Shown here piece after piece: positions 5,923-64,000 of a stretch of DNA of 64,000 nt. The stretch spans positions 1 to 64,000 of the forward strand of contig CAMYOJ010000040.1 in NCBI GenBank assembly GCA_947259985.1, read 5' to 3'. This DNA comes from an uncultured Woeseiaceae bacterium (GTDB lineage: Bacteria; Pseudomonadota; Gammaproteobacteria; Steroidobacterales; Woeseiaceae). How positions within the stretch are numbered: position 1 is the stretch's first letter; each line of letters begins with the position of its first letter. Under the pieces are notes generated by a model, which was given only the letters and a program-made list of their open reading frames with translations, searched no databases and had not been told where the DNA came from. Made by a program: the position numbers and the translations under genes.

Positions 5923-5941
5923 CGGCTATAGTTCAGGTTCT

Positions 5942-8471: not shown

Positions 8472-8487
8472 TATACGGAGAACAGGG

Positions 8488-9279: not shown

Positions 9280-9368
9280 CAGGCTTTTTTGCGTGGGACG
9301 CAGGAACTTGTCTACGGGCACTGACTCAAAGATTGTAGTTGATGACGGGGCAACGGTACGGTTAGCAA

Positions 9369-10082
9369 ATGCGAGACTTACGTAAAACGCTTTTCGCAGC
9401 GCTGTTCATTTCGCTACTCGGGACGGCGCAGGCAGAGGGCTCACCGGCCGCATCCGCCGAATTACCCGATTTCCGCACGGTGTCGGTGCAGAGCAAGGTT
9501 GATAAACTGTTCGAAAGCGGCGAATTCGAGCGCGCTTACTTCATCTACAGAAACGAGCTTGCGCCAATAGGCGACAAGTACGCCCAATACATGGTCGGCT
9601 ACATGCACCTGATGGGTATGGGCGTCGAGGAAGACGAGGTGCGTGCGTCGGCCTGGTACCGGCTTGCCGCGGAGCGCGGGTATCCTGAATTTGTGGCGAT
9701 CCGTAAGCAGGTGCTCAAGTCACTTGACGACGAGGGCCTGCAGCGCTCGGATGCCAAATACATCGAGTTGCGACAGCAATACAGTGACCTCGTCCTGTCG
9801 ATGCGGCAGTTGCTTCGTGACTACGACGAGTTGTCGGAGCCGAAAACCGGCTCGAGGCTGCCGGGTCGAGGCAGCCCGGTGATGATCATCGATCCGACGA
9901 GGCGCGTCGGTATGACCGGGGAGAGCTATTACCGCAAGACGGAACTACGATTCCGGACTCGCCTCGACTACGTGACGGATACTCTGGGCATCGAACGGGT
10001 CACGGGGCAGGTCACCGAGAAGAATCTTCGCGAGTTGCAGGACCGGGTCGAAGAGCACGTATCCCGGATCGACGACCGCTAG
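9369..10082 (+). CDS. Secreted SEL1/TPR-like repeat protein
   Basis: Signal peptide followed by Sel1-like motif YMVGYMHLMGMGVEEDEVRASAWYRLAAERGYPE. Confidence 0.7.
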   Translation: MRDLRKTLFAALFISLLGTAQAEGSPAASAELPDFRTVSVQSKVDKLFESGEFERAYFIYRNELAPIGDKYAQYMVGYMHLMGMGVEEDEVRASAWYRLAAERGYPEFVAIRKQVLKSLDDEGLQRSDAKYIELRQQYSDLVLSMRQLLRDYDELSEPKTGSRLPGRGSPVMIIDPTRRVGMTGESYYRKTELRFRTRLDYVTDTLGIERVTGQVTEKNLRELQDRVEEHVSRIDDR

Positions 10083-10092
10083 TGCCCGACCG

Positions 10093-10698
10093 CTAGTTAT
10101 CCGGTCGCAGGCCCGCACTCAGAATGTGCGGAAACTCGGCAACGACCTGTTGCGCGACGCTCGCGTCACCGTGAAACCACTTCGGCACCCAGTTGAGGGC
10201 GCCCATGATCGCGTTGCCGGTCATGCGTACATCGCAGGGCGCGATGCTGCCATCGGCGATGCCTTGCTCCAGGATGCGCTCGAAAAGCGCCCCGTGTTCC
10301 CTGGACACAGCAAGAATTTCCTCGCGGTGCTCCGGCTTGAGCGAAGGGATTTCGCTCATGATCGCGACGGGCCCGCGTTCGCCGACCATGGCCTCGACGT
10401 GATAGCGAATATAGCGCGCGACGATATCCAGCCCGTCGCGGCCTTCGGCAATTGCCCGGTGTAGCGACTCGCGGCCGACCTCGGCAGCGCGCACGTAACA
10501 CAGGTAGACGAGTTCTTCCTTGTTGCGCACGTAGTAGTAAAGGGCCGCATCGGTGAGGCCGAGAATATTGGCCACGTCCCTCAGCGATGAGCCGCTGTAG
10601 CCTTTCTCGTTAAAGCAACGCGCGGCAGCGCGCAGCATGCGGCCCTTCTGCAGCTGAAAGCGCGTCTCTTCGGTCTGTTGAGCGAGTCGTTTCCCCAT
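10093..10698 (-). CDS. TetR/AcrR family transcriptional regulator
   Basis: N-terminal HTH: ILRAAARCFNEKGYSGSSLRDVANILGLTDAALYYYVRNKEELVY. Confidence 0.93.
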   Translation of the reverse strand: MGKRLAQQTEETRFQLQKGRMLRAAARCFNEKGYSGSSLRDVANILGLTDAALYYYVRNKEELVYLCYVRAAEVGRESLHRAIAEGRDGLDIVARYIRYHVEAMVGERGPVAIMSEIPSLKPEHREEILAVSREHGALFERILEQGIADGSIAPCDVRMTGNAIMGALNWVPKWFHGDASVAQQVVAEFPHILSAGLRPDN

Positions 10699-10737
10699 AA
10701 TCTCGGGCCGTACTTGAGTTCTGTGCGAATCTCGATT

Positions 10738-10757
10738 ATTTTAATCTAGATTAAAAT
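10738..10757. promoter_or_regulatory. Perfect 20-bp palindrome, candidate operator of the divergent TetR regulator
   Basis: ATTTTAATCTAGATTAAAAT in the tetR/icmF divergent intergenic region; equals its own reverse complement. Confidence 0.65.
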
Positions 10758-10845
10758 TTTTGCAACAACAAAACTGATTGATTTCTAAGAACTTTCCACC
10801 TCCCAGGTGGTCTGTTCTGCTGTGTTTTTGCGCAGGAGCCTGCCT

Positions 10846-13800
10846 ATGAGTACTGCAGCCACCGACTTGCCCGCCGCCAGGCACGATGCGGCTCCGTTGC
10901 GCTTCGTGACAGCGGCTTCGCTGTTCGACGGCCACGATGCGGCGATCAATATCATGCGCCGCCTGATCCAGGCGCAGGGCGCGGAGGTCATCCACCTGGG
11001 TCACAATCGCAGCGTCGACGACATTGTGCGGGCCGCGATCCAGGAAGACGCCGATGCCATCGCGGTCAGTTCCTACCAGGGAGGGCACAACGAGTTCTTC
11101 CGCTACATGGTTGATCGTTTGCGTGAGCTCGATGCCGGGCACATCAGGGTTTTCGGTGGCGGTGGCGGCACGATAACCCCCGAAGAAATTAGCGACCTCA
11201 TGGAGTACGGCGTCGAGCGAATCTACCATCCCCACGACGGCATGGAGCTGGGTCTCGAGGCAATGATCAGCGATCTCGTCGAACGCACCAACGCCGCGCG
11301 GCAAGCGACGATCGCGCCGTCCAGGACCGAATCCGTTATCGATATAGCGGCGACGATCTCGGCGATCGAGGAAGGCGTCTTCGACGACGGTGCACTCTCG
11401 CGCCTGCGCAAGGAATGGCAGATGCAGGCGGGCGAGGCCCCGGTAGTGGGCATCACGGGTACGGGTGGGGCCGGCAAGAGCAGCGTTACCGACGAGATAC
11501 TGAATCGCTTCCTGGCCTGTTTCGGGGATATGCGCATCGCGGTCCTGGCCGTGGACCCGACACGCCGGCGAACCGGTGGCGCCTTGCTCGGCGACCGGAT
11601 TCGTATGAACTCACTGCGTTCCGAGCGCATTTACATGCGCTCGATCGCCACACGGCGTCAGCACCTGGCGACGAGCGAGATGCTCGCCGATCACATCCTG
11701 TTTCTGAAGTCGCAGGGCTTCGACCTCGTGATTGTCGAAACAGCGGGTATCGGTCAGAGCGACAGTGAGATCGTCGATATGGTCGATTACTCGGTGTACG
11801 TCATGACCTCCGAGTACGGTGCTGCGAGCCAGCTCGAGAAGATCGACATGCTCGATTTTGCGGACCTCGTCGTGCTCAACAAGTACGACAAGCGCGGCGC
11901 CGAAGATGCGCTGCGTGATATTCGCAAGCAATGGAAGCGAAATCACAGGGCATTCGACATCGCCGACGAAGACATCCCGGTCTATCCTACGATCGCGAGC
12001 CAGTTCAACGATCCGGGTGTCAGCTGGATGTTCGCGGAGCTGTGTCGGCGTGTCGCCGAGAAAGTCGGGCTGGAGAAGGCCGGCTGGATGCCGCAGATCG
12101 ATACGTCGGTGCGTGAACCCAGGTCGACGGCGACAATCCCCGGTTCCCGGATACGCTATCTGGCTGAGATCGCCGAACAGGGACGCGCAATCAACACCGA
12201 GGTTGAGAAGCAGGCCGCGACCGCGAGTCTCGCGCAGCACGCCTACGAGGCATTGAAACTCCTGGATGATGCGGAGTTGCCCGCCGAATTCGAGCGCTAC
12301 CCCGCGGCAGCGCTGACCGATGGTGATGACCGCAGCCTGCTGGTGCTCAGACAACGTTACCAGGAAGCGATCGGCGACCTGAGCGCTGATTCGCTCGAGC
12401 TTCTTCGTGAATGGCCCGCGCGCAAAGCCGGCGTGAGGTCGGAGACACACAGTTACACCGTGCGAGGCAGGGAGATTTCGGGCAACAACTACCGGGAGTC
12501 TCTGAGTCATCAGAAGATTCCAAAAATCGCGGCGCCCGATTTCAGCGATTGGGGGGAACTGTTGAGATTCCTCGGTCGGGAAAATCTTCCGGGTGCATAT
12601 CCCTATACCGGTGGCGTGTATCCCTACCGCAGGCTCGGTGAAGATCCGACGCGGATGTTTGCGGGCGAAGGCACCCCCGAAAGAACCAACCGCCGCTTTC
12701 ATTACCTGTCGCTCGGCCAGGAGGCCGCCAGGCTTTCGACCGCCTTCGACTCGGTCACGCTCTACGGCGAAGATCCGCACGAGCGGCCCGACATTTACGG
12801 CAAAGTCGGTAACTCGGGCGTATCCATCGCGACCGTTGATGACATGAAGAAGCTGTATTCGGGTTTCGATCTCTGTGCACCGACGACGTCGGTATCAATG
12901 ACGATCAATGGACCCGCGCCGATGATCCTCGCATTTTTCATGAACACGGCGATCGATCAGCAGGTGGAAAAGCACCTGCGTGAAACCGGCGGCTGGGAGG
13001 CGGCGCAGAAAAAAATTGACAAGTACTTCGAGAAGCGGCCGCGACCGCGGTACGTCGGTGACCTGCCAGAAGGCAATGACGGCCTCGGGCTGGGGTTGCT
13101 CGGTGTGTCGGGCGAACTCGTTGTCGATGCCGCAACCTATGCGCGCATTCGTAAGGACACGATGGCAACCGTGCGCGGCACGGTTCAGGCCGATATTCTC
13201 AAGGAAGACCAGGCGCAGAATACCTGCATTTTCTCGACCGAATTTGCGATGAAGATGATGGGCGACGTGCAGCAGTTTTTCATCGACAACAGTGTGCGTA
13301 ACTACTACAGCATTTCGATCAGCGGTTATCACATCGCCGAGGCCGGCGCGAACCCGATCAGCCAGCTTGCGTTCACGCTCTCGAACGGTTTCACGATCGT
13401 CGAGTACTACCTGGCGCGTGGCATGGACATCGATGAATTTGCGCCAAACCTGAGCTTCTTCTTTTCGAACGGCATGGATCCCGAGTACTCGGTCATCGGC
13501 CGGGTCGCGCGCCGTATCTGGGCGCGCGCCATGAAGGAGCGCTACGACGCCAGCGCACGTTCGCAGATGCTCAAGTACCACGTGCAGACATCGGGGCGTA
13601 GCCTGCACGCGCAGGAGATCAGCTTCAACGATATCCGCACGACCTTGCAGGCGCTCTATGCGCTATTCGATAACTGCAACAGCCTGCACACGAATGCGTT
13701 CGATGAAGCGATTACGACGCCCACCGAACAGTCTGTGCGCCGCGCCGTTGCGATTCAGCTCATCATATCGCGGGAACTCGGCCTCAACTTCTGCGAAAAC

Positions 13801-17137: not shown

Positions 17138-17150
17138 TAGACTCAGTTCG

Positions 17151-17252
17151 TCACAGGGGTGGTCTTCTGACCTGAGATCCGCGACCCGGCCGGTGCCGGG
17201 AACCGCGGGAACCCTTAGAACCTGATCCGGTTAATGCCGGCGTAGGGAGGGA
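17151..17252 (+). ncRNA. TPP riboswitch (THI element)
   Basis: CAGGGGTGG...CTGACCTGAGATCC...GCGGGAACCCTTAGAACCTGATCCGGTTAATGCCGGCGTAGGGAGGGA, carrying the CUGAGA and ACCUGAUC..GUUAAUGCCGGCGUAGGGA thi-box core, 4 nt before ATG 17256. Confidence 0.96.
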
Positions 17253-17255
17253 GTA

Positions 17256-19340
17256 ATGAACACAAAATCCTGCTTGCGGCGATTCGCCGTTCTCATCATC
17301 TTGTTGTCCGCAGTCTCTGCAGGGGCTGAGGAAGACAGCGTCGTCGACGAGATCGTCGTTACGGCCGATTTCAGGGAGCGGCCGGTGCGGCAGCTACCTG
17401 CCAGCGTCAGCGTGCTCGACGCCGGGTTCATCGAGTCCAGCGCTGTGCAGCACTTCGAAGAACTCGTCAATGTCGTACCGAACCTGAACTGGTCGGGAGA
17501 CGGCCACCGCGCACGTTACTTCCAGATTCGCGGTGTCGGGGAGCTCGAACAGTACCAGGGTGCGCCGAATCCCTCGATCGGGTTCCTGATCGACGACATC
17601 GATTTCAGCGGCATCGCTACAATTGCCACGTTGTTTGACGTTGGCTCTATCGATGTCCTGCGCGGCTCGCAGGGAAGCCGCTTTGGCGCCAATGCGCTGG
17701 GCGGCCTTATTTACATGCAGAGCAAACGACCTTCGGCGCAGCGAGACGGTCGGCTGCAGCTCACAGTCGGCGATGATGATGCCGTGTCTGCAGGCCTCGC
17801 GTTCGGGGGCGCGCTCGATGATGAGGAGACACTGACGTTTCGCCTGAGCGCACAGGTACATGAGAGCGATGGCTACCGCGACAACAGCTACCTCGGTCGC
17901 GAGGACACCAACGGACGCGACGAAACGACAGTGCGGCTGCGCCTCAATTATGCGCCTTCGGATGTCCTCGTCGCCGATGTCGCGCTGCTTTATAGCGACA
18001 TCGATGATGGTTACGACGCATTCGCGCTCGACAACAGCTATGCGATGCTGTCGGACAAGCCCGGCGAGGATGCGCAGCGGAGTAAAGGTGCATCCCTGCG
18101 ACTCGAGTGGCTCGGTCCCGGCGCCCTGACCATGACGTCGATCTCGGCATTCGCCGACTCCGATATCGACTTCAGCTTTGACGCCGACTGGGGCAACGAG
18201 ACCAGCTGGGCGCCGGTGACGTACGACTACGTGTCGCTCAATGACCGCGAACGCCGGACTCTGAGCCAGGAACTGCGCGTCGGCTCCGACGACAACTGGC
18301 TTGCAGGCTTGTACGTCCAAAAACTCGAAGACGAGTTGGTGACGATCAATCGCGGCGACTACTACGATCCTTTCTATGACTTCGCGGACAGTCTCGACGA
18401 TTCGTTTGCGAGCGACTACGAGGCGACGAGTTCGGCGCTGTTTGTGCAGCTGGACAAGGAGCTGGCTGATGCCACGCGACTTGGCTTCGGGTTGCGCGTC
18501 GAGCACCGTTCGACCGATTATTCGGATTCGGCGGGACTGGAGGCAGGACCGTCCGAGACGATGTGGGGCGGCGAGCTGAGCCTGAGTCACGATCACTCGA
18601 GTCAGCTGACCAGCTTTATCACCCTGTCCAGGGGATTCAAGGCCGGAGGCTTCAACCTCGGTATTGTTCCTGACGGGCGACGCGACTTCGGCGAGGAGAC
18701 GCTCTGGACGCTGGAGGCGGGCATCAAGTCATCGCTGGCCGACGACACGCTGACCCTGAATGCTTCCGTGTTCGTCAGTGAGCGCGACGACCAGCAGGTA
18801 CGCACGTCCGTGCAGCTCGTTGCGGGCGATCCGGCCTCGTTCGTCTTTTTTACCGACAACGCAGCCCGGGGCGACACGTTGGGGCTCGAAGCGGACGTGC
18901 GCTGGTTCCCGTCCGAGTCCTGGGAGCTATACGCCAACATCGGCCTGCTCGATGCGAGTTTCGACGAGTTCCTTGCGCCGGAGGGCGATCTCAGCGGCCG
19001 TGACCAGGCACACGCTCCGCGCTACACATTTGCGGGCGGCGCAGCGTACAGGAATCAGTCGGGTTATTTCGCGCGTCTCGACCTGACCGCGCGCGACGAG
19101 TTCTACTTCGACGTAAGCCATGATCAGAAGTCATCCTCGTACGCCTTGCTTAATGCTCGCGTGGGCTATGAGGGCGATTCCTGGCTCGTGCAACTGTGGG
19201 GCCGGAACCTGTTCGACAAAGAGTACGCAGTGCGCGGTTTTTACTTCGGCAACGAGCCGCCCGATTTTCCGAACACGCTGTACACGCGCCTCGGTGACCC
19301 GCGGCAGGTCGGCGTAACCATCGAGAAGAGGTTTGACTAA
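17256..19340 (+). CDS. TonB-dependent outer membrane receptor, predicted thiamine/thiamine-precursor receptor
   Basis: Signal peptide, TonB-box-like DEIVVTAD, plug VSVLDAGFIESS.VQHFEELVNVVPNL, DVLRGSQGSRFGANALGG, C-terminal LFDKEYAVRGFYFGN...GDPRQVGVTIEKRFD; downstream of the TPP riboswitch. Confidence 0.92.
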   Translation: MNTKSCLRRFAVLIILLSAVSAGAEEDSVVDEIVVTADFRERPVRQLPASVSVLDAGFIESSAVQHFEELVNVVPNLNWSGDGHRARYFQIRGVGELEQYQGAPNPSIGFLIDDIDFSGIATIATLFDVGSIDVLRGSQGSRFGANALGGLIYMQSKRPSAQRDGRLQLTVGDDDAVSAGLAFGGALDDEETLTFRLSAQVHESDGYRDNSYLGREDTNGRDETTVRLRLNYAPSDVLVADVALLYSDIDDGYDAFALDNSYAMLSDKPGEDAQRSKGASLRLEWLGPGALTMTSISAFADSDIDFSFDADWGNETSWAPVTYDYVSLNDRERRTLSQELRVGSDDNWLAGLYVQKLEDELVTINRGDYYDPFYDFADSLDDSFASDYEATSSALFVQLDKELADATRLGFGLRVEHRSTDYSDSAGLEAGPSETMWGGELSLSHDHSSQLTSFITLSRGFKAGGFNLGIVPDGRRDFGEETLWTLEAGIKSSLADDTLTLNASVFVSERDDQQVRTSVQLVAGDPASFVFFTDNAARGDTLGLEADVRWFPSESWELYANIGLLDASFDEFLAPEGDLSGRDQAHAPRYTFAGGAAYRNQSGYFARLDLTARDEFYFDVSHDQKSSSYALLNARVGYEGDSWLVQLWGRNLFDKEYAVRGFYFGNEPPDFPNTLYTRLGDPRQVGVTIEKRFD

Positions 19341-26531: not shown

Positions 26532-27392
26532 GTGAAACTCGCGAGCTTCAGGATCGCGGACAGGGACAGCTACGGCGCCATCATGGAGGACGGCGTCGCT
26601 GAAGCGAGCGCGAACTTTCGGCGGGAGTTCGCCAATCTGGGCGCGGTGCTCGAGGCCGGAGCCGCGATCGAACTCGGCGAAAATCTCGCGGACGAACGCT
26701 TGAATGCAGCCGAGTTCGAATTCCTGCCGCCCGTAACCCGGCCTGACAAGATACTCTGCGTCGGCGTCAATTACCGTCCGCACATCGCGGAGATGGGCCG
26801 GGAGGTGCCCGACTACCCGGTCGTGTTTGTCCGATTCCCGGGCAGCCTGGTCGGTCATGACCGGCCGATAACGCGTCCGGAAGTTTCTGTGCAGTTCGAT
26901 TTCGAAGGCGAACTGGCCGTAGTCATCGGCAAGCGCGCGCGGCATGTGCCGCGAGGTGAGGCGCTCGACCATGTCGGCGGCTACTGCTGTTTTATGGACG
27001 GTTCCGTGCGCGACTGGCAACGGCATACGATGCAGTTCACACCCGGTAAGAACTTCGAACAGAGCGGTGCAATGGGGCCCTGTATCGTGACGAGCGACGA
27101 AATCCCTGATCCGTCAGTGCTGGAACTGACGACGCGCGTCAATGGCAAGGTCATGCAGCGCGGCATGCTGGCTGACCTCGTTTTCGATATCCCGAGGCTC
27201 ATCGAGTATTGCTCCACGTTTGCGGAACTGCTGCCCGGGGACATCATTGCGACGGGCACGCCGGGTGGAGTCGGCGCGGCGCGCACGCCACCAGCCTGGC
27301 TAAAGGAGGGCGACGTCGTTGAAGTCGATATTGCCAAGGTTGGCTTGCTCAGGTGCACGGTGAGGGACGAACGCCCTGCAATTCGCGCTTAG
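26532..27392 (+). CDS. Fumarylacetoacetate hydrolase family protein
   Basis: KILCVGVNYRPHIAEMG, DFEGELAVVIGKRARHVP, DIIATGTPGGVGAARTPPAWLKEGDVVEVDI. Confidence 0.93.
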   Translation: MKLASFRIADRDSYGAIMEDGVAEASANFRREFANLGAVLEAGAAIELGENLADERLNAAEFEFLPPVTRPDKILCVGVNYRPHIAEMGREVPDYPVVFVRFPGSLVGHDRPITRPEVSVQFDFEGELAVVIGKRARHVPRGEALDHVGGYCCFMDGSVRDWQRHTMQFTPGKNFEQSGAMGPCIVTSDEIPDPSVLELTTRVNGKVMQRGMLADLVFDIPRLIEYCSTFAELLPGDIIATGTPGGVGAARTPPAWLKEGDVVEVDIAKVGLLRCTVRDERPAIRA

Positions 27393-27677
27393 GTCTTGAT
27401 TTTGCTGGCAAAGCCAAATCGAGTATCTTGTTGCTTTTGTACCACAAAAACAACAGCGTGCCCGACATTGCTTTTGGTCATGGTCTAAAGGATTGACAAA
27501 CAGCGATATTTCTGCGAATTTCACCCCTAGCAAACGTAGCCTTTCAGCAACAACTTGGCTGCGCTGCGGGTTAAGAACACCTTCAGGTACGACTTGGCGG
27601 GGGACTCAGGGGGCCAGGAACCACGTGCTTACGTAGGTTTGGAAAAGCGGTTTCTTTCGGGAAACCGCTTTTTTTTG
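27393..27677 (+). ncRNA. Candidate structured non-coding RNA or leader ending in an intrinsic terminator
   Basis: Intergenic region with hairpins at 27398-27420, 27429-27455 and 27614-27642 followed by a strong terminator; no convincing ORF; no family recognised. Confidence 0.45.
27645..27676 (+). terminator. Rho-independent terminator
   Basis: AAGCGGTTTC-TTTCGG-GAAACCGCTT followed by TTTTTT: 10-bp perfect stem plus T tract. Confidence 0.9.
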
Positions 27678-27687
27678 TGCGCACTCA

Positions 27688-28995
27688 ATGATAAAGAACA
27701 TCCTGTGCCTCACCGTGCTGCTCCTGTCGCTTCCCGCTGCAGCGTTTGACGATACCGAACGGCACATGGTTGAGTGGATCGACTCGCACAGCGAGCAAGC
27801 CATTGCCTTGCTCGAGGAAACCGTCAACATTTCCAGCGGGACGATGAACCACGAAGGTGTCCGCGATGTCGGTCGTGTCATGCGGCGCGAACTGGATGCT
27901 CTCGGCCTCGAAACCGAGTGGATCGAAATGCCGGCCGAGGTCAATCGCGCCGGCCACCTGTTTGGTCGCAAGCCGACAGGATCGGGCAGGAAATTGTTGC
28001 TCATCGGGCACCTGGACACGGTCTTCGAAGCCGACGATGACTTCCAGGCATTCACACGCGACGGGAACGAAGCCACCGGGCCCGGCGTGGATGACATGAA
28101 GTCTGGCAACGTCATTATTGTGTATGCACTGAAAGCCCTGCAGGCGGCCGGCTTACTCGAGGATATCCCGGTTGTCGTCGCCTACACCGGTGACGAAGAA
28201 AAAATGGGTAAACCGTTGGCCATATCCCGCAAGGAACTGCTCGAGGCCGGGAAATGGGCGGACATTGCACTCGGTTTCGAATCTGCCGTCCATTATGACG
28301 ACAGCGACTGGGTGACCGTCGCACGCCGCAGTTCTACGCGCTGGACACTCACCGTCGAGGGCAAGCGGGCACATTCTTCCGGGATTTTCTCGGAGCGCGT
28401 CGGGGCTGGCGCTATTTTCGAGGCGGCTCGCATACTCGACAGGTTTTACGAAGAACTCAGTTCCGAAAAGTACCTGACCTTCAACGCAGGCACGATCCAG
28501 GGCGGCAGCGAAGTCACTTACGATCCGCAGCAGAATCGCGGCACTACCTTCGGCAAGAACAACGTCGTACCGAGCACGGTCGTCGTGCAAGGCGGCATGC
28601 GCACGATTTCGACGCAACAACTCGAGCGCACTCGGGAAGCAATGCGGGCAATCGTTGCCGACAGCCTGCCGCATACCAACGGCAGCATAGAATTCGGCGA
28701 AGGCTACCCGCCGATGTTTCCAACAGAAGGAAACCGGTCCCTGGCGGCAGTATTGTCGAATATCAATGAATCGCTGGGGCGCGGCCCGATGCGGGAACTG
28801 GATCCGGGACGACGCGGCGCCGCGGACGTATCATTCGTGGCGCCTTACACGGACGCGCTGGCCGGACTCGGGGCGCTCGGAAATGGCGGTCATACGCCGA
28901 ATGAGAACCTCGACCTGACTTCGTTGTCACTGGCCATCAAACGTGCTGCAATCCTGATTTACCGGCTGAGCGACACAGCGGGAACGGACCGATAA
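27688..28995 (+). CDS. M20 family metallopeptidase (glutamate carboxypeptidase-like), secreted
   Basis: Signal peptide MIKNILCLTVLLLSLPAAAF; LLIGHLDTVFE, GPGVDDMKSGNV, YTGDEEKMG, GRRGAADVSFVA. Confidence 0.92.
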   Translation: MIKNILCLTVLLLSLPAAAFDDTERHMVEWIDSHSEQAIALLEETVNISSGTMNHEGVRDVGRVMRRELDALGLETEWIEMPAEVNRAGHLFGRKPTGSGRKLLLIGHLDTVFEADDDFQAFTRDGNEATGPGVDDMKSGNVIIVYALKALQAAGLLEDIPVVVAYTGDEEKMGKPLAISRKELLEAGKWADIALGFESAVHYDDSDWVTVARRSSTRWTLTVEGKRAHSSGIFSERVGAGAIFEAARILDRFYEELSSEKYLTFNAGTIQGGSEVTYDPQQNRGTTFGKNNVVPSTVVVQGGMRTISTQQLERTREAMRAIVADSLPHTNGSIEFGEGYPPMFPTEGNRSLAAVLSNINESLGRGPMRELDPGRRGAADVSFVAPYTDALAGLGALGNGGHTPNENLDLTSLSLAIKRAAILIYRLSDTAGTDR

Positions 28996-54431: not shown

Positions 54432-54946
54432 GTACCGAATATCCGACAAGTTCCGGAAATGCACGATTCATAGCGTGGATGGTGGTCGCGCTGGCTATTG
54501 TGCTGGCGGATCAGCTCACGAAGTGGGCGATCATCGAGTGGGTGCCGCTTTATGATCGCGTGCCGGTCAATTCATTCATCAATATTACCCACCAGCAAAA
54601 CACCGGTGCGGCTTTCAGCTTCCTGGCAAATGCGGGCGGCTGGCAACGCTGGTTCTTTGTCGTTCTGGCGGCGATCGTGAGCGCCGTCATCGCGGTATGG
54701 ATCTGGCGAGTCCGCAGCGCAGGGCAAAACCTGTTGTCGGCGGGTCTGGCGCTGGTTCTGGGCGGCGCAATCGGCAATCTGATCGATCGCATCCTGCACG
54801 GTTATGTCACCGACTTCGTGCAGGTATGGTTCGGCGACTGGGCGTTTCCTTCGTTCAACGTTGCGGACGCCGGCATTTCTGTCGGCGCCGCCCTGTTGAT
54901 TATCGACGCGCTGTTCTTCGCGTCAGCGCGGGAAGAAGCGGCCTAG
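54428..54946 (+). CDS. lspA: Lipoprotein signal peptidase (signal peptidase II)
   Basis: VLADQLTKWAI, NITHQQNTGAAFSFLANAGGWQRWFF, GGAIGNLIDRILHGYVTDFVQVWFGDWAFPSFNVADAGISVG; GTG start overlaps ribF stop. Confidence 0.96.
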   Translation: MSTEYPTSSGNARFIAWMVVALAIVLADQLTKWAIIEWVPLYDRVPVNSFINITHQQNTGAAFSFLANAGGWQRWFFVVLAAIVSAVIAVWIWRVRSAGQNLLSAGLALVLGGAIGNLIDRILHGYVTDFVQVWFGDWAFPSFNVADAGISVGAALLIIDALFFASAREEAA

Positions 54947-55359
54947 CGCTGACGCGTCCAGCAGTCGGTGTACGGGCCGGAACCCTTTGTGCCGTTGGCG
55001 GTAATCGTAAAAGTAAAGCACTTGTCTTTCTCTTCGTCGTCTGGCTGGTAGGTAGCGGTCGCCGTGAAGTCGCTGCCCGGGGCAGGGGACACAACCGTGA
55101 TGCGATAGGTGCCGGAATCGGTTAAGTCGGAGGCGAAGCCGAGCAGGGCCAGATTGCTTGTGAAAGCCTGGTTCTGCAGGTAGAACTTCTCCTGGTTCGT
55201 GGCCAGTTTCAAGAGCGCTGCTTTTCCTTCGTTGCGCTTTGCACGCGCCACGTACTCGCGATAGTTCGGGTACGAGAGCGCCGCCAGCATGGAAACGATG
55301 ACCACGACGATCATCAACTCCAGCAGCGTTATACCGGCCATTCTTTTACGCATTTTCAT
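54943..55359 (-). CDS. pilE: Type IV pilin-like protein (PilE family)
   Basis: Prepilin motif KRMAG-ITLLELMIVVVIVSMLAALSYPNYREYV; C-terminal Cys pair. Confidence 0.9.
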   Translation of the reverse strand: MKMRKRMAGITLLELMIVVVIVSMLAALSYPNYREYVARAKRNEGKAALLKLATNQEKFYLQNQAFTSNLALLGFASDLTDSGTYRITVVSPAPGSDFTATATYQPDDEEKDKCFTFTITANGTKGSGPYTDCWTRQR

Positions 55360-55395
55360 GTTCGCTTTCCTGATTCAGACGTAGGCCAAATGGCT

Positions 55396-58300
55396 CTATT
55401 CAATGCCATCCTGGGTCCATAGCGTGCGCACCGGGAAGTTTTCATAACCCGGATCGAAACATTCTACACCGACGCAGCCCACCGGCGCAGGCGCACACTC
55501 GGTGCCCGTGCAGTTCGGGTCCGTGGGGCTCGGGAAGAAGAACGTCGGCTTCGGCGCGATACCGCCCTGCTCGAGTCGTGTCACTCGAGCGGTGTCAGCA
55601 GCCTCGGGATCCAGCGTAACGCCGTTGCCGAGATCGATGATCGGATCGCCGTTAACGACGTCGACTCTGTAGAGGCGGTTGACACTGAGGCCGGCCTGGC
55701 AAGGGTCGGTGGAGTTAACGGTCGGCTCCATCGTCACGAAGTAGACGGCATTGTCGAAGGTCCGAGAGTCGGAAAGCACTTTCTCGTTCGGCGGCAGCGT
55801 GAATTTCCAGCCAGGGCTGTCATCCGGCATAACAGTGCCGTAGGCGCCCGATACCTCGACCAGGTCTCTGTCCTCGATGATCGAATAGCCATCGTACTGC
55901 GCCTGCGTAAGCGGTGTGAACAGGAACGGGTCGCGTATCGAGTAGAAGCGATCCGCGGCGCTATTGTCGAGCGGATGAGCGCGGTAGCCGCTGCCGATGT
56001 TGATGGCGAGGAAGCGACGATCCAGCCGCTTGTCGGCAAACATGGCAACGTCAGGTGTCGTATACAGGCGCCGTGTATCTTCCGGCTTCGGATTGGCAAT
56101 CCCCTCGGCGCCGAGCCTTGCAATGACGCCACCGGCGACGAGTTCGTAAGGCTTATTGCCGTTCGTGATGTCGAAGCGCCATACCTGGCCGCCCAGGTCG
56201 GCCGCATACATGCGGTCCGCAAGGCCGTCACCGTTGAGGTCAATGACACGCACGCTGCCCGGTATGGAACGGTTCATCTTGTCCAGGCTCAGGTCGGCAA
56301 AGCCGTCCTTGCCTGCGCGCCAGATCATGTCGCCGGTCTCGAGATCGAGCATCATGATGCCGGCACCCGACGCGTCGTCCGATGCGGGGTGTGCCGGTGC
56401 GTCGTGCACTGTGTCGTAACCTCCGCCAATGACGACGACCGCATCTTGCGGGCTGGTGTGGATAGTGCTGTCGATATCGATCTTGGCTACCACAGGCGCC
56501 GACCAGGTCTGTCCCAGCTCCGGGTACGTCCTGATCCAACGCAGTTTGGGAGCGTCAGGATTGGTGACCTCGATCATGTAGTAGTTGTCACCACCGCGGC
56601 GCATGCCGAACAGCAGGTAAACGAAATCCGTGCCGCTTTCGATAACGCCGTCGTTGTCCGCGTCGTAGATGACGGGGATGACATCGCCGTCAAGGCCGTA
56701 GTTCTTGTAGTCGACATTGTCGTTGACGTACAGCTCGTTGAAGTTGGCCAACAGCTCACGCGGGACGAAGGACCATTTCTCGACACCACCGTCAGCCTCG
56801 ATGGCATGCAGGTAGCCGTCGTTAGTGGCGCTGTAGATGATGACCTCGTAAGTCCCGTCGGGCTGGCCATAGACGACGGCGGCTGGCTGCGCGTGCAGCG
56901 TGTCACCCATCGCCTTGCGGGAGTCGTCCGTGGCGCCGTCGTTGTCCTCGTCCTTCACGTCCATGCCGCGCGCCCAGTCGATCAGTTTGGACATCGTGGG
57001 TTCGCCCGCGGCACCCGTCAGTCCGAAGTCGTCGGGCACGAATGACGAGACGTTGCCGGTTGAGAGCGCGTTCGACGGAATTGTAAGGCTCCCTATGCTG
57101 TTGTTCGTGTAGACCTTGCGCAGTGCGGCGGGCGGCAAGACATTAGCTGCACCGCCGGAGTAGACGTCAGCACCATCAGCACCGGCTTCGTTCTGCCAGA
57201 AGTTCTTGGATGAATCAGCAAAAAAACCTGTATCCGGGTCGATAGCGTTGTTTTCCAGCGCGTCCTCGATAGTGGCATCCTTGAGCAGGTACTTCTTCAT
57301 GTTGCCCGGCCAGTGGACTTCGTCCTGGGCGCGGAAAACCGACACATAAAGGTTGTTGAGGTGCTGCGTGCGATTGAACGCATTGACCGCAACGGCCGGG
57401 GCCGTGAAGGAGATGTCGCGATTGAATATGTCGCTCGTAATCTCGGTCAATGCTTTTGTGAGTTCCGCAACGTTGTTGGCCGAGAAGTACTTGCCACCAC
57501 CAGCGTCCGCCGTTTCCTGCAGCAACGGGAAGTCGACGGCAAAGCCAATAGTGTAGGTCGTGGCCGATTGTACGCCGTCGACCGTCGTGTTGAGATCGGC
57601 ATTGGCCAGGTACTCGGCGACATCGTCGAGGCAGGCGCCGTCCGTGCCGCTGTTGCCCGTGCAGGAGCCGCGGCCGGTTGCATCGTAGAAATCGGGCAAG
57701 GTGGGAATATCGTAATAAGCGCTCGTGTCCTCTCTAGGCTCGCCGTCAGTCAGCAGGACGACGAAGTTCTTCGAGCAGGCGTATTCAACGGGCTGCTCGT
57801 AGACCATGGGCGCGTCGCTGGCCAGCGCGACTGTATCAGTATCAGTGTCATCGCCGTAAACAGCGGACATACCGCGCAGATAGAGAGCGGCCTCGTACAT
57901 CGTTTCCGACAGTGGCGTCCAGCCTGAAGCCGGGAGCGCATCCACGGTTGTGTTCAACGCGCCACGATTGCTGTCGAGATCCTTGAGCGCCTGGACGACC
58001 GTGCCGCCCTCGCTCCAGTTGAACCACATGAAGCCGACGTTGACGTCATTCATCGAACCCAAAACGTTCTTGGTCACGGCCTGTACGATGTCGGTCTTGC
58101 GCATGTCCTCGCCCGCGGGATTGTGGTGCCAGTTGAGGTAATTCGGGTCGTACATCGTGACGATGCGATGCGTCGGCTTCGAGCCCCAGTCGACTTCGCT
58201 GTTTGAATCCGACGTATAAGGAGCTACGTTAGAACCGATACGCGCATAGGGTTCGGTTTCCGCGGTCGCGCCGTATCCATGAACACCGGAGTCCGCTTCG

Positions 58301-58752
58301 CACTCGACGGCTTTGTCTGTCTGGGCCTTGCTGGGCGTCCGCCATTTCCAGACACCTTTCCAGTTCTGCCGGTACATTGCCATCGTGTCCGTGTACGAGC
58401 CGGCGTCCGCCATCTGGGTGAGACCCTGCTGGCAGAGGAAGGCGGTCTTATCGATCTTGTATTGATCGCCACAGGTCGGAATGCTGCTACCTGTCGTCCA
58501 GTAGTACTTGTCGCTTTCGCAGCTGCCGCTGTAAACGACACTGGAGTCGTAGGGCGGCTGGGTCGAAACCTCACCCGTCATACTTCCCGACGAGTCGAGA
58601 ATGAACAGCAAGTTCGGTTTTGCCGCAATACTCGTACCCGGCGTCGACAGCAACAGCTCGACGTCGTCGGCCCAAACCGGCGACGCAAGCGTCAGTGTGA
58701 GCAATAGTCCTGCACCAGCAGCCCAAGCGGCGCGTATCCTGGACATAGTCAT
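55396..58752 (-). CDS. pilY1: PilY1/PilC-like pilus tip protein (copy 2)
   Basis: VWA-like FILDSSGSM, EF-hand-like DADNDGVIE and DLNGDGLAD, propeller VIGGGYDTVHD, MYAADLGGQVWRFDI, FLAINIGSGYRAHPLD. Confidence 0.93.
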   Translation of the reverse strand: MTMSRIRAAWAAGAGLLLTLTLASPVWADDVELLLSTPGTSIAAKPNLLFILDSSGSMTGEVSTQPPYDSSVVYSGSCESDKYYWTTGSSIPTCGDQYKIDKTAFLCQQGLTQMADAGSYTDTMAMYRQNWKGVWKWRTPSKAQTDKAVECEADSGVHGYGATAETEPYARIGSNVAPYTSDSNSEVDWGSKPTHRIVTMYDPNYLNWHHNPAGEDMRKTDIVQAVTKNVLGSMNDVNVGFMWFNWSEGGTVVQALKDLDSNRGALNTTVDALPASGWTPLSETMYEAALYLRGMSAVYGDDTDTDTVALASDAPMVYEQPVEYACSKNFVVLLTDGEPREDTSAYYDIPTLPDFYDATGRGSCTGNSGTDGACLDDVAEYLANADLNTTVDGVQSATTYTIGFAVDFPLLQETADAGGGKYFSANNVAELTKALTEITSDIFNRDISFTAPAVAVNAFNRTQHLNNLYVSVFRAQDEVHWPGNMKKYLLKDATIEDALENNAIDPDTGFFADSSKNFWQNEAGADGADVYSGGAANVLPPAALRKVYTNNSIGSLTIPSNALSTGNVSSFVPDDFGLTGAAGEPTMSKLIDWARGMDVKDEDNDGATDDSRKAMGDTLHAQPAAVVYGQPDGTYEVIIYSATNDGYLHAIEADGGVEKWSFVPRELLANFNELYVNDNVDYKNYGLDGDVIPVIYDADNDGVIESGTDFVYLLFGMRRGGDNYYMIEVTNPDAPKLRWIRTYPELGQTWSAPVVAKIDIDSTIHTSPQDAVVVIGGGYDTVHDAPAHPASDDASGAGIMMLDLETGDMIWRAGKDGFADLSLDKMNRSIPGSVRVIDLNGDGLADRMYAADLGGQVWRFDITNGNKPYELVAGGVIARLGAEGIANPKPEDTRRLYTTPDVAMFADKRLDRRFLAINIGSGYRAHPLDNSAADRFYSIRDPFLFTPLTQAQYDGYSIIEDRDLVEVSGAYGTVMPDDSPGWKFTLPPNEKVLSDSRTFDNAVYFVTMEPTVNSTDPCQAGLSVNRLYRVDVVNGDPIIDLGNGVTLDPEAADTARVTRLEQGGIAPKPTFFFPSPTDPNCTGTECAPAPVGCVGVECFDPGYENFPVRTLWTQDGIE

Positions 58753-58818
58753 TGTCCTTACCTCTTTTAGTCAATCCGTGACCTGATCGCTCAACCAGTC
58801 ACAAACAAAAATATCTCT

Positions 58819-59160
58819 TTACCGACTGATATCTATTTTTGTGACGGTATTTGTCTCTGTGTCATAACTCACCAGCGCATAGCTCCTATCGCTACGCTTG
58901 ATGGTGGCAAATTCCCTCCTGAACTCCTCGAATTTGACAGCTTTGCCGTTCAGCGCGAACTTCGTGTTCGGCGTCAGACGTGCTCTCTTATGCTCGCGAT
59001 CGCATTCCCCAGTGCATGGCTTGAACGTCATCATGCCGTTCACCGTTGCGGGAAGAATAATATCGCCAGGCGAAGTCTCGACGGCGTCGATCAATGCGAA
59101 CGCCGGCTGACAAAGCAGCAATGTCATTGCGATCAAAACTTTGCGAATAGTCATCTTCAT
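58819..59160 (-). CDS. Small secreted protein with Cys pair (paralog of 62660-63001)
   Basis: Signal peptide; ILPATVNGMMTFKPCTGECDREHKRARLTPNTKFALNGKAVKFEEFRREFATIKRSDRSYALVSYDTETNTVTKIDIS. Confidence 0.75.
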   Translation of the reverse strand: MKMTIRKVLIAMTLLLCQPAFALIDAVETSPGDIILPATVNGMMTFKPCTGECDREHKRARLTPNTKFALNGKAVKFEEFRREFATIKRSDRSYALVSYDTETNTVTKIDISR

Positions 59161-59236
59161 TACTCCCTGTCACTCAGACAGACCTTCACCAAATTATCCC
59201 GGTTCCGGGCCTGAAAGGCCCGGAACCACCACTCAA

Positions 59237-62200
59237 TTAGTCAATCCCGTCCTGCGTCCAGAGCGTACGAACCGGGAAGTTTTCGAACCCTGGGTCGAAA
59301 CACTCGACGCCCACGCAGCCGATCGGCGGCGGTGCGCAATCGGCGCCAGTGCAGTTCGCATCCTCGGGGCTGGGGAACAGGAATCTCGGCGACGGTGCGA
59401 TGCCGCCCTGCTGCAGGCTGGTGACGCGCTCGTTGTCTTCCTGGCCGGGCAAGATATTATCGAGATCCGCAATCGGGTCGCCGTTGACTACCGAGATCCT
59501 GTACAGGAAGTTACGGCCGGTCCCCGCGGCGCATGCAGCCGCGCCGGCGGCATCCGGTGAGAAGGCGACGAAGAAGATCTCGTTGTTGAACGTGACCGAG
59601 TTCGAGAAGACCTTCTGATCCGCGGGCAGCGTGAACTTCCAGCCGCGTTTGTTGGCTGGAATTGCCGTGCCTGTCGTGCCGCTGATCTCGATGAGCTCCG
59701 CATCGGTGACGGGCACAAAGGCGTCATATTCGGCTTGTGTCAGCTGATTGAACACGTTTGCGTCGCGGATCGAATAGAAGCGATCCGTATTGGAGTCATC
59801 CAATGGGTGCGAGCGATAGCCACTGCCCATGCTGATCGCCAGGAAGCGACGATCCTGGATGTTGTCCGTGAATACCGAGACGTCCGGCGAGGAGTAGAAG
59901 CGTCGCGTGTCGGCCAGGCCAGGTGAGCCCAGGCCCTCGGCACCGAGCTGCGCGACAACCCCACCTGCGACGAGAGTGTCCGGAGTGTTGCCGTTCGAGA
60001 TGTCGAAGCGGAAGATCTGGCCGCCCATGTCGGCGGCGTACATGCGGTCGGCAAGGCCGTCGCCACTGATGTCGATGACACGGACCTGGGTTGCGATCGC
60101 ACGATCCATTTCACGGCCAGTGTTCGATAATTCCAGGTTCGCGGAACTATCGGCACCTGCGCGCCAGAGGATATCGCCTGTCTGCAGGTCGAGGAAGAAG
60201 ATCCCGGCACCTTCAGTGTCCGCGCTGGCGGGATGCGTGATCGTATCGTGCACGGTGTCATAGCCGCCACCGATTACGACGACGGCCTTGTCCGTATTGA
60301 GGCCAGGGTCGTCAATGTCCACTCGGGCCACGGTCGGGCGCGACCAGGACTGGCCGAACCCCGGCGCACTGATGCGCCACTTGAGCTTCGGACTGTTGCG
60401 ATCCGTCACGTCGAGCGCGTAATAAGCGTTGCCGCCACGGCGCATGCCGAAAATGATGTAAACGAAGTCGCCATCCGCCTGTTCGACGATGCCGTCTCCG
60501 TCGCGATCGGCAACGACTGATACGATGTCACCGTCGATGCCGTACTGCTTGTCGGCCGAATCCGGGTTGAAGAACAGCGAGGGCAGGCGCGGCAACAGCT
60601 CCTTCGGTACGAAGGCCCACAATTCCTGACCATTCGAACTGTCAATCGCGTGCAGGTAACCATCATTGGTCGCCGTGTAGATCGTCATGTCCGGATTCTG
60701 CGCGTCGCCGCCGTATACGACAGCTGCCGGCTGCGAGTGCAGTGGGTCGCCCATTGCCCTGCGCACGGTCGTGGTTGGATCGAAGTCCTCGTCAAGAAGA
60801 TCCTCGCCGCGCGCCCAGCGAATCAGCTCGGCAATGCTCGGCTCACCGGTAGCGCCCGTCAGGCCAAAATCGGACAACGAGAAGCTGCTGTCATTCGACG
60901 GCGTCAGCGCATTCGCAGCTGCCGCGAGATTGTCGTTAGTCGTATTGTTCGTGTACAGCTTGCGAACCGCCGGGTCCGGAAGGTTCTCCAGCGCGCCGCC
61001 CGAGCGTACGTCGTCGCCGTCAGCGCTTGTGGACCAGTAGCTGGTCGCATTGTCGTCAAACAGGCCCGTCGCCGGGTTGATCGCCGGGTTGTCGTTCTTG
61101 TCCACGACGATACCGTCCGATATGCGGTACTTCTTGAGGTTGCCCGGCCAGCGGTATTGCTCGCTCGCGGCGAACGTCGACAGGTACAGGTCGTTCAGGT
61201 TCTGTGTCCGGTTGAACGCGTTAACAGCGACGGCGGGCGCCGCGAACGACAACGAGTCCTCGGTGATCTCGGTGACGATCTCGAGCAGCGCCTGGGTCAG
61301 GCTCTGTACGTCATCGGCGCGGAAGTAATCACCACCACCGCGTGCTGCGGTGTTCTCGAGGTACGGGAACTCCTGGCCGAAGGCAATCGTGTGGGTCGTT
61401 ACGATCTGCACACCGTCGGCCGTCGAGATATCGTCCTTGTTGAGATAGGCCGCGATGTCGTCAAGGCAGTCGCCCATGTTCGTCCCGGTGCAACCGGCGT
61501 AGCCGTGGGTTGCGAACCAGTTGGGCAGCGTGTCCACGAGGCTCGGCGTCTCATCATCGTTGACGGGCACGCCGTCGGTCAGCAGTACCGTGAAGTTCTT
61601 GGAGCAGACCTGGCTGTCAGGTTGCTGGTAGACCTCGGGATTGTCTGATTCTAGCGCGACAGAGTCGGTTGCGTGCTCATTAATGTTTTCGCCGTAGAAA
61701 GCCGGCAGACCGCGCCAGTAGCGCGCGGCTTCGTACATAGTTTCGGAAACCGGCGTAGCACCGCCCGCCGTGATGCTGTCTATCGTGTCGATGATAGCCG
61801 CACGATTGCTGTCGAGGTCCTGCATGCCGACAATAACGGGGCCACCATCGCTGTGGTTAAAGCGCATGATGCCGACATTGATGCCGTCGATCGCGTTCAG
61901 GATAGCCTTGGCCGTGTTATTCACGATGTTGATACGGCTGTCCATGATCAGGGACGGGTTTTCGAGGTAATTCAGGAAATTGCCGTCGTAGACTGTCACG
62001 GTGTCACTGGTCGGCCAGCTGTTCCAGGCGATTTCGTCGTCATTGTCGCTTGTGTAGGGCGCGACGTCGCCACCGCGCTGTGCGTAGAGATCGACAAGAT
62101 TGGCGCCGTCGCCGTGCTTGTTACGGTCTTTCTTGCACTCGACGATATCAGTGTAGTTTCCGTCCTCGAGATTTTGCCAGCGCGTCGAATCCAGTCCCAG

Positions 62201-62629
62201 GAAGATGCTGTAAAAGCCGGAGCCGCCGTCGCGGTACTGCACCATCTTGTTGCGGTAGCTGCCAATGCCCTGGATCTGCTTGACGCTATCGTTGCAGAGG
62301 AACGCCGTCTTGAGGATTCTCTTGGTATTGGAAGCACCACACAATGGAATGATCTTCTTGTTGCGAGTCCAGTACAGGTAGGCAGGATCGCAAGGCTCAG
62401 TGCCACCTACGTAGGGCAACGTGTAATCGTAAACCTCGCGCGTCTCTTCCTGAGTAGTCATGCTGCCCGACGAGTCGATTATGAAAAGAACGTTCGGTTT
62501 TGTTTGGGTTGCCGCGTTCGGGTTTACGAGCAGGAGCTCGGTATCGTCGGCGATCGCCGGCGCACCGCAGGTCAGGGCCAGCAGCAGCCCGATGCTCATC
62601 CATGAAATCTTTGTAGTTAAGCTGTTCAT
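59237..62629 (-). CDS. pilY1: PilY1/PilC-like pilus tip protein (copy 1)
   Basis: FIIDSSGSMTTQEE, DRDGDGIVE, DISGDGLADRMYAADMGGQIFRFDISNG, FLAISMGSGYRSHPLDDSNTDRFYSIRD; near-identical C-terminus to copy 2. Confidence 0.93.
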   Translation of the reverse strand: MNSLTTKISWMSIGLLLALTCGAPAIADDTELLLVNPNAATQTKPNVLFIIDSSGSMTTQEETREVYDYTLPYVGGTEPCDPAYLYWTRNKKIIPLCGASNTKRILKTAFLCNDSVKQIQGIGSYRNKMVQYRDGGSGFYSIFLGLDSTRWQNLEDGNYTDIVECKKDRNKHGDGANLVDLYAQRGGDVAPYTSDNDDEIAWNSWPTSDTVTVYDGNFLNYLENPSLIMDSRINIVNNTAKAILNAIDGINVGIMRFNHSDGGPVIVGMQDLDSNRAAIIDTIDSITAGGATPVSETMYEAARYWRGLPAFYGENINEHATDSVALESDNPEVYQQPDSQVCSKNFTVLLTDGVPVNDDETPSLVDTLPNWFATHGYAGCTGTNMGDCLDDIAAYLNKDDISTADGVQIVTTHTIAFGQEFPYLENTAARGGGDYFRADDVQSLTQALLEIVTEITEDSLSFAAPAVAVNAFNRTQNLNDLYLSTFAASEQYRWPGNLKKYRISDGIVVDKNDNPAINPATGLFDDNATSYWSTSADGDDVRSGGALENLPDPAVRKLYTNNTTNDNLAAAANALTPSNDSSFSLSDFGLTGATGEPSIAELIRWARGEDLLDEDFDPTTTVRRAMGDPLHSQPAAVVYGGDAQNPDMTIYTATNDGYLHAIDSSNGQELWAFVPKELLPRLPSLFFNPDSADKQYGIDGDIVSVVADRDGDGIVEQADGDFVYIIFGMRRGGNAYYALDVTDRNSPKLKWRISAPGFGQSWSRPTVARVDIDDPGLNTDKAVVVIGGGYDTVHDTITHPASADTEGAGIFFLDLQTGDILWRAGADSSANLELSNTGREMDRAIATQVRVIDISGDGLADRMYAADMGGQIFRFDISNGNTPDTLVAGGVVAQLGAEGLGSPGLADTRRFYSSPDVSVFTDNIQDRRFLAISMGSGYRSHPLDDSNTDRFYSIRDANVFNQLTQAEYDAFVPVTDAELIEISGTTGTAIPANKRGWKFTLPADQKVFSNSVTFNNEIFFVAFSPDAAGAAACAAGTGRNFLYRISVVNGDPIADLDNILPGQEDNERVTSLQQGGIAPSPRFLFPSPEDANCTGADCAPPPIGCVGVECFDPGFENFPVRTLWTQDGID

Positions 62630-62659
62630 CTCAATTCCCTCAGAATCCTGTTCGACCTG

Positions 62660-63001
62660 CTAGATGACCGTGAAAATCACCTTGGTGATGCGGTCCTTCT
62701 CCAGGTGATGCAAGACGGTTACATATTGATTGCCGCGCTCGGTAACACGAGCAACACCACGACGGAACTTTTTGAGCGACACGCTTTTTCCGTTCAGGAT
62801 CCAGGTGGTGTCCTCGCTGAGTCGTTTTGTAACAAACGCGCATTCTTCGCAGGTCTTGAAGCCCAACGTGCCGCTCTCCGACTGGGGCAGGCGCAGATCT
62901 ACGAGTTCGACCTCGTACGCCTGCTGCACCGTGCGGAACTGTGCCGCTGCGGGAAGCGCCAGTGCGAGAAGGATGGTTGCGAAAATCGTTCTGGTTTTCA
63001 T
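62660..63001 (-). CDS. Small secreted protein with Cys pair (paralog of 58819-59160)
   Basis: ATG 63001; MKTRTIFATILLALALPAAA signal; LRLPQSESGTLGFKTCEECAFVTKRLSEDTTWILNGKSVSLKKFRRGVARVTERGNQYVTVLHHLEKDRITKVIF. Confidence 0.75.
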   Translation of the reverse strand: MKTRTIFATILLALALPAAAQFRTVQQAYEVELVDLRLPQSESGTLGFKTCEECAFVTKRLSEDTTWILNGKSVSLKKFRRGVARVTERGNQYVTVLHHLEKDRITKVIFTVI

Positions 63002-63026
63002 AGGACTACTCCGTATTGCCGTCCGC

Positions 63027-63518
63027 CTACAGCGTCGAGGACTCAGGTCCGACGACATAGAATGCTTGCGTGTGGATCGCGCTCGAGTCGCGGTCCGTAG
63101 TGCTGCCGGGTGCGCGCTTCGACGTCGCTACCGACGTCGCGAGGAAGTGATACGCGGCGATGCCGCTGCCAACACCGAGACTGAATGCCCGGTCGGGTAC
63201 CAGCGTCGAATCCTCAAAGCGGATTTTTGCGTGGTGCTCGTCGTGCAAATTACCCGGGTCGACGTAGGTCTGTCCGAGGTCGATTTCGGCAAGCGTGTCG
63301 AAACGTCCCTGCGCCATAGCCAACTCGAGTCCCGTTTCTGCGGCCTGGAACGCAAACTCGTAGTTTTGGTCATTGCGTGCCATAGCCAGCTCGGTCGTTG
63401 CTGTGTTCATGCCCGAAACCGCGAGCGTCGTAATGACGACGAGCAGTAGCAGGCTGACGATGAGCACCGCGCCCTGTTGGCTGTCGAGCGAATGGATCGG
63501 CTTCTTTATAGATTTCAT
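63027..63518 (-). CDS. pilX: Type IV pilus assembly protein PilX
   Basis: SQQGAVLIVSLLLLVVITTLAVSGMNTATTELAMARNDQNYEFAFQAAETGLELA. Confidence 0.9.
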   Translation of the reverse strand: MKSIKKPIHSLDSQQGAVLIVSLLLLVVITTLAVSGMNTATTELAMARNDQNYEFAFQAAETGLELAMAQGRFDTLAEIDLGQTYVDPGNLHDEHHAKIRFEDSTLVPDRAFSLGVGSGIAAYHFLATSVATSKRAPGSTTDRDSSAIHTQAFYVVGPESSTL

Positions 63519-63532
63519 AATTTTTCTCTCGA

Positions 63533-64000
63533 TCATGTTCTGGCATTACGCAGAAGAATGGTTTTCGATACCTGCAGGCGGCGGAAGTTGTCGTTGTATA
63601 CGCCGAGAGTCGCATCGCCAGGCCTGTAGTCGTTGACGTCCTGCACGCCCTGTTCTTGCGAAGTACTGCGCACGATCATCCAGATTCGCGCCGTCATAAC
63701 GCGAGCGCCGGGCAGGTACCCGACCGCGTTCGGGTCATAAATGGGGTCGCCCGGATTGACGTACCGGTCGACCGTATTGTCCTGGTTTACGTCGATGCCG
63801 AGCTGCAGCTGGATGTTCTCGACGCCAGGCGCGACTTCCTGGTCCCGGATAACGGAAGCACCGGAGTCCATCGTCAGCGTCTTCATGCGCAAGGTCGGCA
63901 CACCCGGAATCAGCTCGGACTCCTGGGCGACGTAATAGCTGTTGACAATCAGGTTGTGCGTGGCGGACGGGTCGGTTGCCAGCGCCGGCGCAGTCGGTAC
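63533..64000 (-). CDS. pilW: Type IV pilus assembly protein PilW, C-terminal part (5' end beyond window)
   Basis: Open to window edge: NLIVNSYYVAQESELIPGVPTLRMK...VAPGVENIQLQLGIDVNQDNTVDRYVNPGDP...RIWMIVRSTSQEQG...FRRLQVSKTILLRNART. Confidence 0.88.
   Translation of the reverse strand, partial: VPTAPALATDPSATHNLIVNSYYVAQESELIPGVPTLRMKTLTMDSGASVIRDQEVAPGVENIQLQLGIDVNQDNTVDRYVNPGDPIYDPNAVGYLPGARVMTARIWMIVRSTSQEQGVQDVNDYRPGDATLGVYNDNFRRLQVSKTILLRNART

Follow-up and report, generated by a model that had tools for sequence, protein, structure and literature searches.

The minor-pilin operon of the type IVa pilus in a marine Woeseiaceae bacterium carries two consecutive cassettes, each consisting of a gene for a small secreted protein followed by a pilY1 gene. 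The gene order is fimT-like, fimU, pilV, pilW, pilX, s1, pilY1-B, s2, pilY1-A, pilE, and both PilY1 proteins are encoded with minor pilins, fimU-pilV-pilW-pilX lying upstream and pilE downstream. We propose with moderate confidence that the cassettes represent a tandem-duplicated unit of small periplasmic protein and PilY1 on one set of minor pilins, each PilY1 having a dedicated partner and the two forming alternative pilus tips. The sequence indicates that each copy is intact as a pair, with fimU, pilV, pilW, pilX and pilE predicted to serve both.

The window analysed comprises 64,000 nucleotides of a contig that runs to 69,934 bases (Table 1). Upstream of pilW, the contig encodes pilV, fimU and a second FimT/FimU-like gene, and with this continuation the gene order is the classic one for minor pilins. 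The ORFs named in the initial annotation (pilW, pilX, a small protein, PilY1 of 1130 aa, a second small protein, PilY1 of 1118 aa and pilE, in that order on the minus strand) were all located where it had placed them. A third, more distant PilY1 (35%) is encoded on another contig within its own minor-pilin operon. The closest named records belong to Woeseiaceae or to unplaced gammaproteobacterial MAGs. An assembly artefact was ruled out, since the copies are too diverged and the arrangement recurs in more than 12 independent assemblies, among them contigs of 343 kb and 747 kb.

Table 1. Features of the two-cassette minor-pilin locus (window positions)
Feature	Position	Strand	Basis
pilE, minor pilin, last gene of the operon, 138 aa	54943-55359	-	Pfam ComP_DUS PF16732 and N_methyl PF07963
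pilY1-A, second PilY1, 1118 aa, limited to a subset of relatives	55396-58752	-	PF05567 above cut-off; tree; AlphaFold model
s2, secreted small protein, 113 aa, signal peptide, CxxxC; partner gene of pilY1-A	58819-59160	-	ORF; AlphaFold; tree
27-nt inverted repeat GGTTCCGGGC-n7-GCCCGGAACC in the inter-cassette spacer; candidate hairpin in the mRNA, or operator	59201-59227	-	Single genome copy; kept in relatives
pilY1-B, 1130 aa, VWA with MIDAS, PilY1 beta-propeller, Cys-rich C-terminal tail	59237-62629	-	PF05567 above cut-off; motifs; tree
s1, secreted small protein, 113 aa (counted from the likely ATG, the ORF opening further upstream), signal peptide, CxxC; partner gene of pilY1-B	62660-63001	-	ORF; same family as s2; alignment A1
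pilX, minor pilin	63027-63536	-	Pfam PilX_N PF14341
pilW, minor pilin, partly in the window	63533-64000 (gene extends to contig position 64561)	-	Pfam PF16074

PilY1-A and PilY1-B align from end to end with 584 of 1142 positions identical (51%, E=0). Their C-termini had been described as near-identical, which is right relative to this average, as 78% of the last 60 residues are shared. Both proteins possess the C-terminal PilY1 beta-propeller (PF05567 above the curated cut-off), in which Asp-rich DG loops are predicted at the motif level to bind calcium, as well as the conserved motifs DxSGS, TPLSET and LTDG of an N-terminal VWA with MIDAS, a common subtype of the PilY1 family; the Pfam VWA model itself gives a weak match, in B. 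An AlphaFold model of PilY1-A (pLDDT 77) has the C-terminal domain of PilY1 as its best solved match in Foldseek (PDB 3hx6, E=2.8e-19). Residues 81-220 are the most diverged, with approximately 35% identity between A and B as against 57-62% within A and 51-54% within B, a pattern suggestive of A/B specialisation. Gene conversion as the source of the similar C-termini was ruled out, because A-B identity within genomes equals that between genomes in every window of the alignment, and the likeness is a matter of constraint rather than of recent copying or conversion. Among close pairs, dN/dS is about 0.04 for pilY1-A and 0.03-0.05 for full-length pilY1-B pairs, and for the small genes, measured with trimmed starts, it is about 0.1-0.35; these values are rough, as some pairs approach saturation at synonymous sites. 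Both copies are under purifying selection and are predicted to be functional.

Single cassettes predominate among relatives. The usual order in the same genus is fimT-like, fimU, pilV, pilW, pilX, small gene, pilY1, pilE, convergent with lspA-ribF-murJ, and pilY1-B is the copy present in nearly all relatives. Among the 36 genomes of the genus-level group with usable flanking genes, 24 possess only B, two only A and ten both; the earlier remark that such operons usually hold one pilY1 is borne out. The tandem order s1, pilY1-B, s2, pilY1-A before pilE was found in 13 same-genus genomes, this one included, a count that takes in G006 (whose contig starts inside pilY1-B) and G045 (whose contig breaks off within pilY1-A). 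The tandem also occurs at L098, L109 and G264. Two genomes (G033 and G054) carry s2-pilY1-A alone, and in G015 s1 and pilY1-B have moved together to a position between the fimT-like gene and fimU. Within the tree set, the 38 genomes with B are exactly the 38 with s1 and the 15 with A exactly the 15 with s2, and neither the small genes nor the pilY1 genes of the A and B types were seen without their partner.

A PilY1 tree was built from 66 sequences (15 A, 38 B and 13 from other families of the order). The A and B proteins form two clades, each with SH-aLRT 100, which join to the exclusion of the 13 other-family PilY1, and a mixture model on 43 rows agrees. In the small-protein tree, a short alignment with a weak outgroup branch and root, the 15 s2 (SH-aLRT 99) and 38 s1 (95) are likewise reciprocally monophyletic. 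The initial annotation had read the locus as a duplicated and diverged two-gene unit and called for a phylogeny of both genes to date it; both pairs of clades join inside the group, which argues, as the simplest reading, for one duplication of the pair in the ancestor of this genus-level group, before its radiation, and for an ancient rather than a recent event. On the tree of the flanking genes (36 genomes), whose branches are weak and whose genes are linked to the locus, a single duplication needs 11 losses of A and two of B, both of the latter (G033 and G054) having removed s1 as well. Copy A appears to have been lost repeatedly, in many lineages, which suggests that it is dispensable.

As correlating the distance matrices of A, B and the flanking genes gave no useful signal, inheritance was assessed by counting shared splits. 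PilY1-A shares 8 of 9 splits with murJ-ribF-lspA (largest number after shuffling, 3), which points to vertical inheritance of copy A. PilY1-B shares 9 of 30 with the flanking genes. Exchange of B in some lineages is likely and its extent uncertain, because flanking and upstream genes also have only 11 of 27 splits in common. Across all 38 genomes, 19 of 35 splits are common to the PilY1-B and s1 trees (mean 0.3 and maximum 3 after shuffling). When the comparison is confined to the 33 genomes with flanking genes, the two trees agree in 19 of 30 splits, whereas they have 9 and 10, respectively, in common with the flanking genes. Among the splits on which PilY1-B and s1 agree is the group G010-G023-G037(-G048), which is at odds with the flanking genes. 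The pair of s1 and pilY1-B is inherited as a unit, and was probably also exchanged as one.

Two other accounts of the second cassette were considered. Cassette A could have entered the operon by horizontal transfer instead of arising by duplication in place. Cassettes can evidently move, given the discordance of B with the flanking genes and its apparent exchange as a cassette, and a donor of A to the ancestor may belong to a lineage outside the tree sampling. Such independent acquisition, which the initial annotation had named as a finding that would overturn a duplication, is nevertheless quite improbable: with 8-13 PilY1 of other families in the order as the root, A and B are nearest clades; the history of A tracks that of the flanking genes; and s2 and s1 repeat the A/B pattern, though with a weak root. 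It also seems unlikely that the second cassette merely adds more of the same tip protein with the same ligand. Redundancy of this kind would fit the motifs, the 12 conserved cysteine positions and the C-terminal tail that A and B have in common, the mere seven residues strictly fixed between A and B at the chosen cut-off, and the frequent loss of A (if ancestral). However, copies with only 51% identity are each conserved in their own clade, their divergence peaks in the N-terminal VWA/Cys-rich part, and there is no gene conversion, a process that often keeps redundant tandem copies alike.

The small proteins s2 and s1 share 34% identity over 85 aa (E=2e-13), and so align over most of their length as had been noted. 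Their cysteine pairs are spaced CxxC in s1 and CxxxC in s2. An alignment of 40 family members (A1) shows an invariant E, an invariant P and two invariant cysteines; s1 of G037 has lost the pair, which is thus not always needed. No Pfam family was matched, and neither a PDB sequence search nor a fold search with the model (AlphaFold, s2, pLDDT 89) returned a confident solved relative. Profile searches of 369 genomes of the class identified the family in 18 and then 22 genomes, and the confident matches immediately precede pilY1; the exception is G287, in which two copies directly follow pilY1 and one is then followed by pilE. Since a PilY1-like propeller is encoded in at least 173 of the 369 genomes, the family accompanies only part of PilY1. 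In many families the small gene adjoins a VWA-type pilY1, directly before it, and none was found next to PilY1 without the VWA part, such as Y1C, L067 and L128. Some VWA-type PilY1 have no small gene (L065, L127 and the second PilY1 of L071/L072), so the small protein is not strictly required. The doubt raised earlier, that the small ORFs might not be conserved with PilY1 elsewhere, was not borne out: the small ORF is kept beside pilY1 in other genomes. The small protein represents an unannotated family, newly described here, usually encoded directly before VWA-type pilY1 across Gammaproteobacteria.

It is doubtful whether this family is the PilY2 known from minor-pilin operons of Pseudomonas, its gene having shifted from one flank of pilY1 to the opposite one. 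Both are secreted, of the same size class and encoded in the same operon by a small non-pilin gene adjoining pilY1, and the G287 copies lie directly after pilY1, once in the very position of PilY2. In P. aeruginosa, pilY2 lies after pilY1, whereas s1 and s2 each precede their own pilY1 and pilE directly follows pilY1-A, leaving the PilY2 position (after pilY1 and before pilE) to neither. PilY2-like proteins encoded in the order pilY1-pilY2-pilE (G432, G456) lack the cysteine pair, and their profile match is non-significant: hhalign of the small family against three PilY2-position proteins standing in for P. aeruginosa PilY2 gave Prob 13%, the alignment leaving out the false member L228. In addition, the gene named pilY2 in A. 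baumannii encodes a pilin; the plasmid collection, used for the Acinetobacter check, yielded only distant PilY1. PilY2 of P. aeruginosa, a small non-pilin gene product encoded beside pilY1, is needed for piliation (PMC10191384). Another counterpart is TfcP of Myxococcus xanthus, a small protein of the periplasm whose gene adjoins pilY1.1 on its upstream side and which stabilises PilY1.1 by stimulating calcium binding (PMC8833165, PMC13190605). The likeness is one of role, not of sequence, as TfcP is a haem-binding cytochrome c, whereas s1 and s2 have no CxxCH motif; in the small-family alignments the cysteine pair has no following His, and no Pfam cytochrome match was obtained. On the basis of position, co-inheritance and analogy, the small protein may be a chaperone-like partner of PilY1.

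PilY1.1, PilY1.2 and PilY1.3 of M. xanthus and PilY1-1, PilY1-2 and PilY1-3 of Xylella have been proposed to form alternative pilus tips (PMC9109919, PMC13190605) or to confer opposing phenotypes (PMC9956873). These genomes resemble the present one in possessing several PilY1. In Myxococcus, however, there is a separate cluster of minor pilins for each PilY1, and in Xylella the paralogues lie mostly in operons at two regions, whereas here two PilY1 are encoded on a single shared cluster. Neisseria and Kingella likewise have two PilY1-family tip proteins per cell, PilC1 and PilC2, with overlapping roles in piliation and adhesion; the Kingella copies share only 7% identity and the Neisseria copies are highly similar (PMC9000118), and in the portion of the source drawn on here neither a small partner gene nor a tandem cassette in a minor-pilin operon is reported. 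In six other clustered pilY1 pairs that were inspected (G409, G294, G137, G459, G067, G080), minor pilins lie between the two pilY1 genes; within this small sample, a tandem with one shared minor-pilin set is unusual. Two pilY1 on one minor-pilin set, unlike these six pairs, are new here, and our literature search found no report of tandem pilY1 in one operon. Neisseria, Kingella, Xylella and Myxococcus serve as functional precedents for alternative tips, and TfcP as one for a small upstream partner.

It is likely that the two PilY1 act as alternative adhesins at the pilus tip and that each has a dedicated partner in the periplasm; one minor-pilin set probably serves both tips. In the proposed mechanism, each small protein would aid the folding or the stability of the VWA-type PilY1 whose gene comes next. 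The two PilY1 would then compete for the same priming complex, and any given pilus would carry one or the other at its tip, with the VWA/Cys-rich N-terminal part, where they differ most, setting the ligand bound. The relative amounts of PilY1-B and PilY1-A may be set by the inverted repeat that separates the cassettes. More tentatively, the small proteins could constitute a new, widespread partner family of VWA-type PilY1 acting in folding, calcium loading or anchoring, the Woeseiaceae pair being an exchangeable cassette, one priming complex being capped by either adhesin and the repeat governing their ratio. Multiple PilY1 per genome are common, but in the known cases considered here each has its own minor pilins or the genes lie apart; two on one set offer a clean natural experiment on whether a single priming complex can take alternative tips. 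A partner family tied to VWA-type PilY1 in Gammaproteobacteria is a direct candidate for a periplasmic factor that takes part in PilY1 maturation and has been overlooked.

The inverted repeat is located directly 3' of the pilY1-B stop codon. A search allowing up to three mismatches found one copy in the genome, which rules out a dispersed repeat; an intrinsic terminator was also rejected, as no T-run follows and the terminator scan has no entry there. In 11 of the 13 tandem loci the repeat can be recognised at this position despite substitutions; the other two, both of which have very short spacers, lack it. Three B-only loci (G022, G041, L114) also have it, in the stretch from pilY1-B to pilE. 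Most simply, these loci retain the spacer of a deleted A cassette, which would support the loss of A, though the repeat could instead belong to pilY1-B itself. A conserved inverted repeat separating the cassettes and persisting in some genomes without A is new here. Either an mRNA hairpin or a protein-binding palindrome would fit the repeat. It varies little in total length among loci, and pairing of its arms exceeds that of shifted controls, two pairs showing changes on both sides, which lends modest support to pairing.

The PilE of the operon is a good match to the receptor domain of ComP, which recognises DNA uptake sequences (E=1.7e-18); a link to DNA uptake is possible. A conserved, single-copy inverted repeat lies between the two cassettes, and is retained in some genomes that lack cassette A (s2 and pilY1-A).

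Among the compared loci, one (L122) carries two ORFs of 198 and 1001 aa in place of a single pilY1, preceded by an intact small gene; this split reflects a frameshift or an assembly error. Two other loci (L067 and L128) encode a short PilY1 of 831 aa lacking the VWA part, and their operons also lack the small gene. In G015, the small gene and pilY1 have been relocated jointly and now sit at the operon's front, with a fimT-like gene on one side and fimU on the other.

The source genome encodes a third, divergent PilY1 within a separate minor-pilin operon of its own, from which the small gene is absent. The corresponding operon adjoins murJ in many relatives, near the main pil operon. A TPP riboswitch was also identified in the window.

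Coordinates of the features described
Feature	Location	Position	Strand
PilE	window	54943-55359	
Inverted repeat	window	59201-59227	
Split pilY1	L122	4794-8434	
Relocated small gene and pilY1	G015 (L040)	5243-12726	
Third PilY1	G000 contig C51 (L005)	26574-28871	
TPP riboswitch	window	17145-17265	plus
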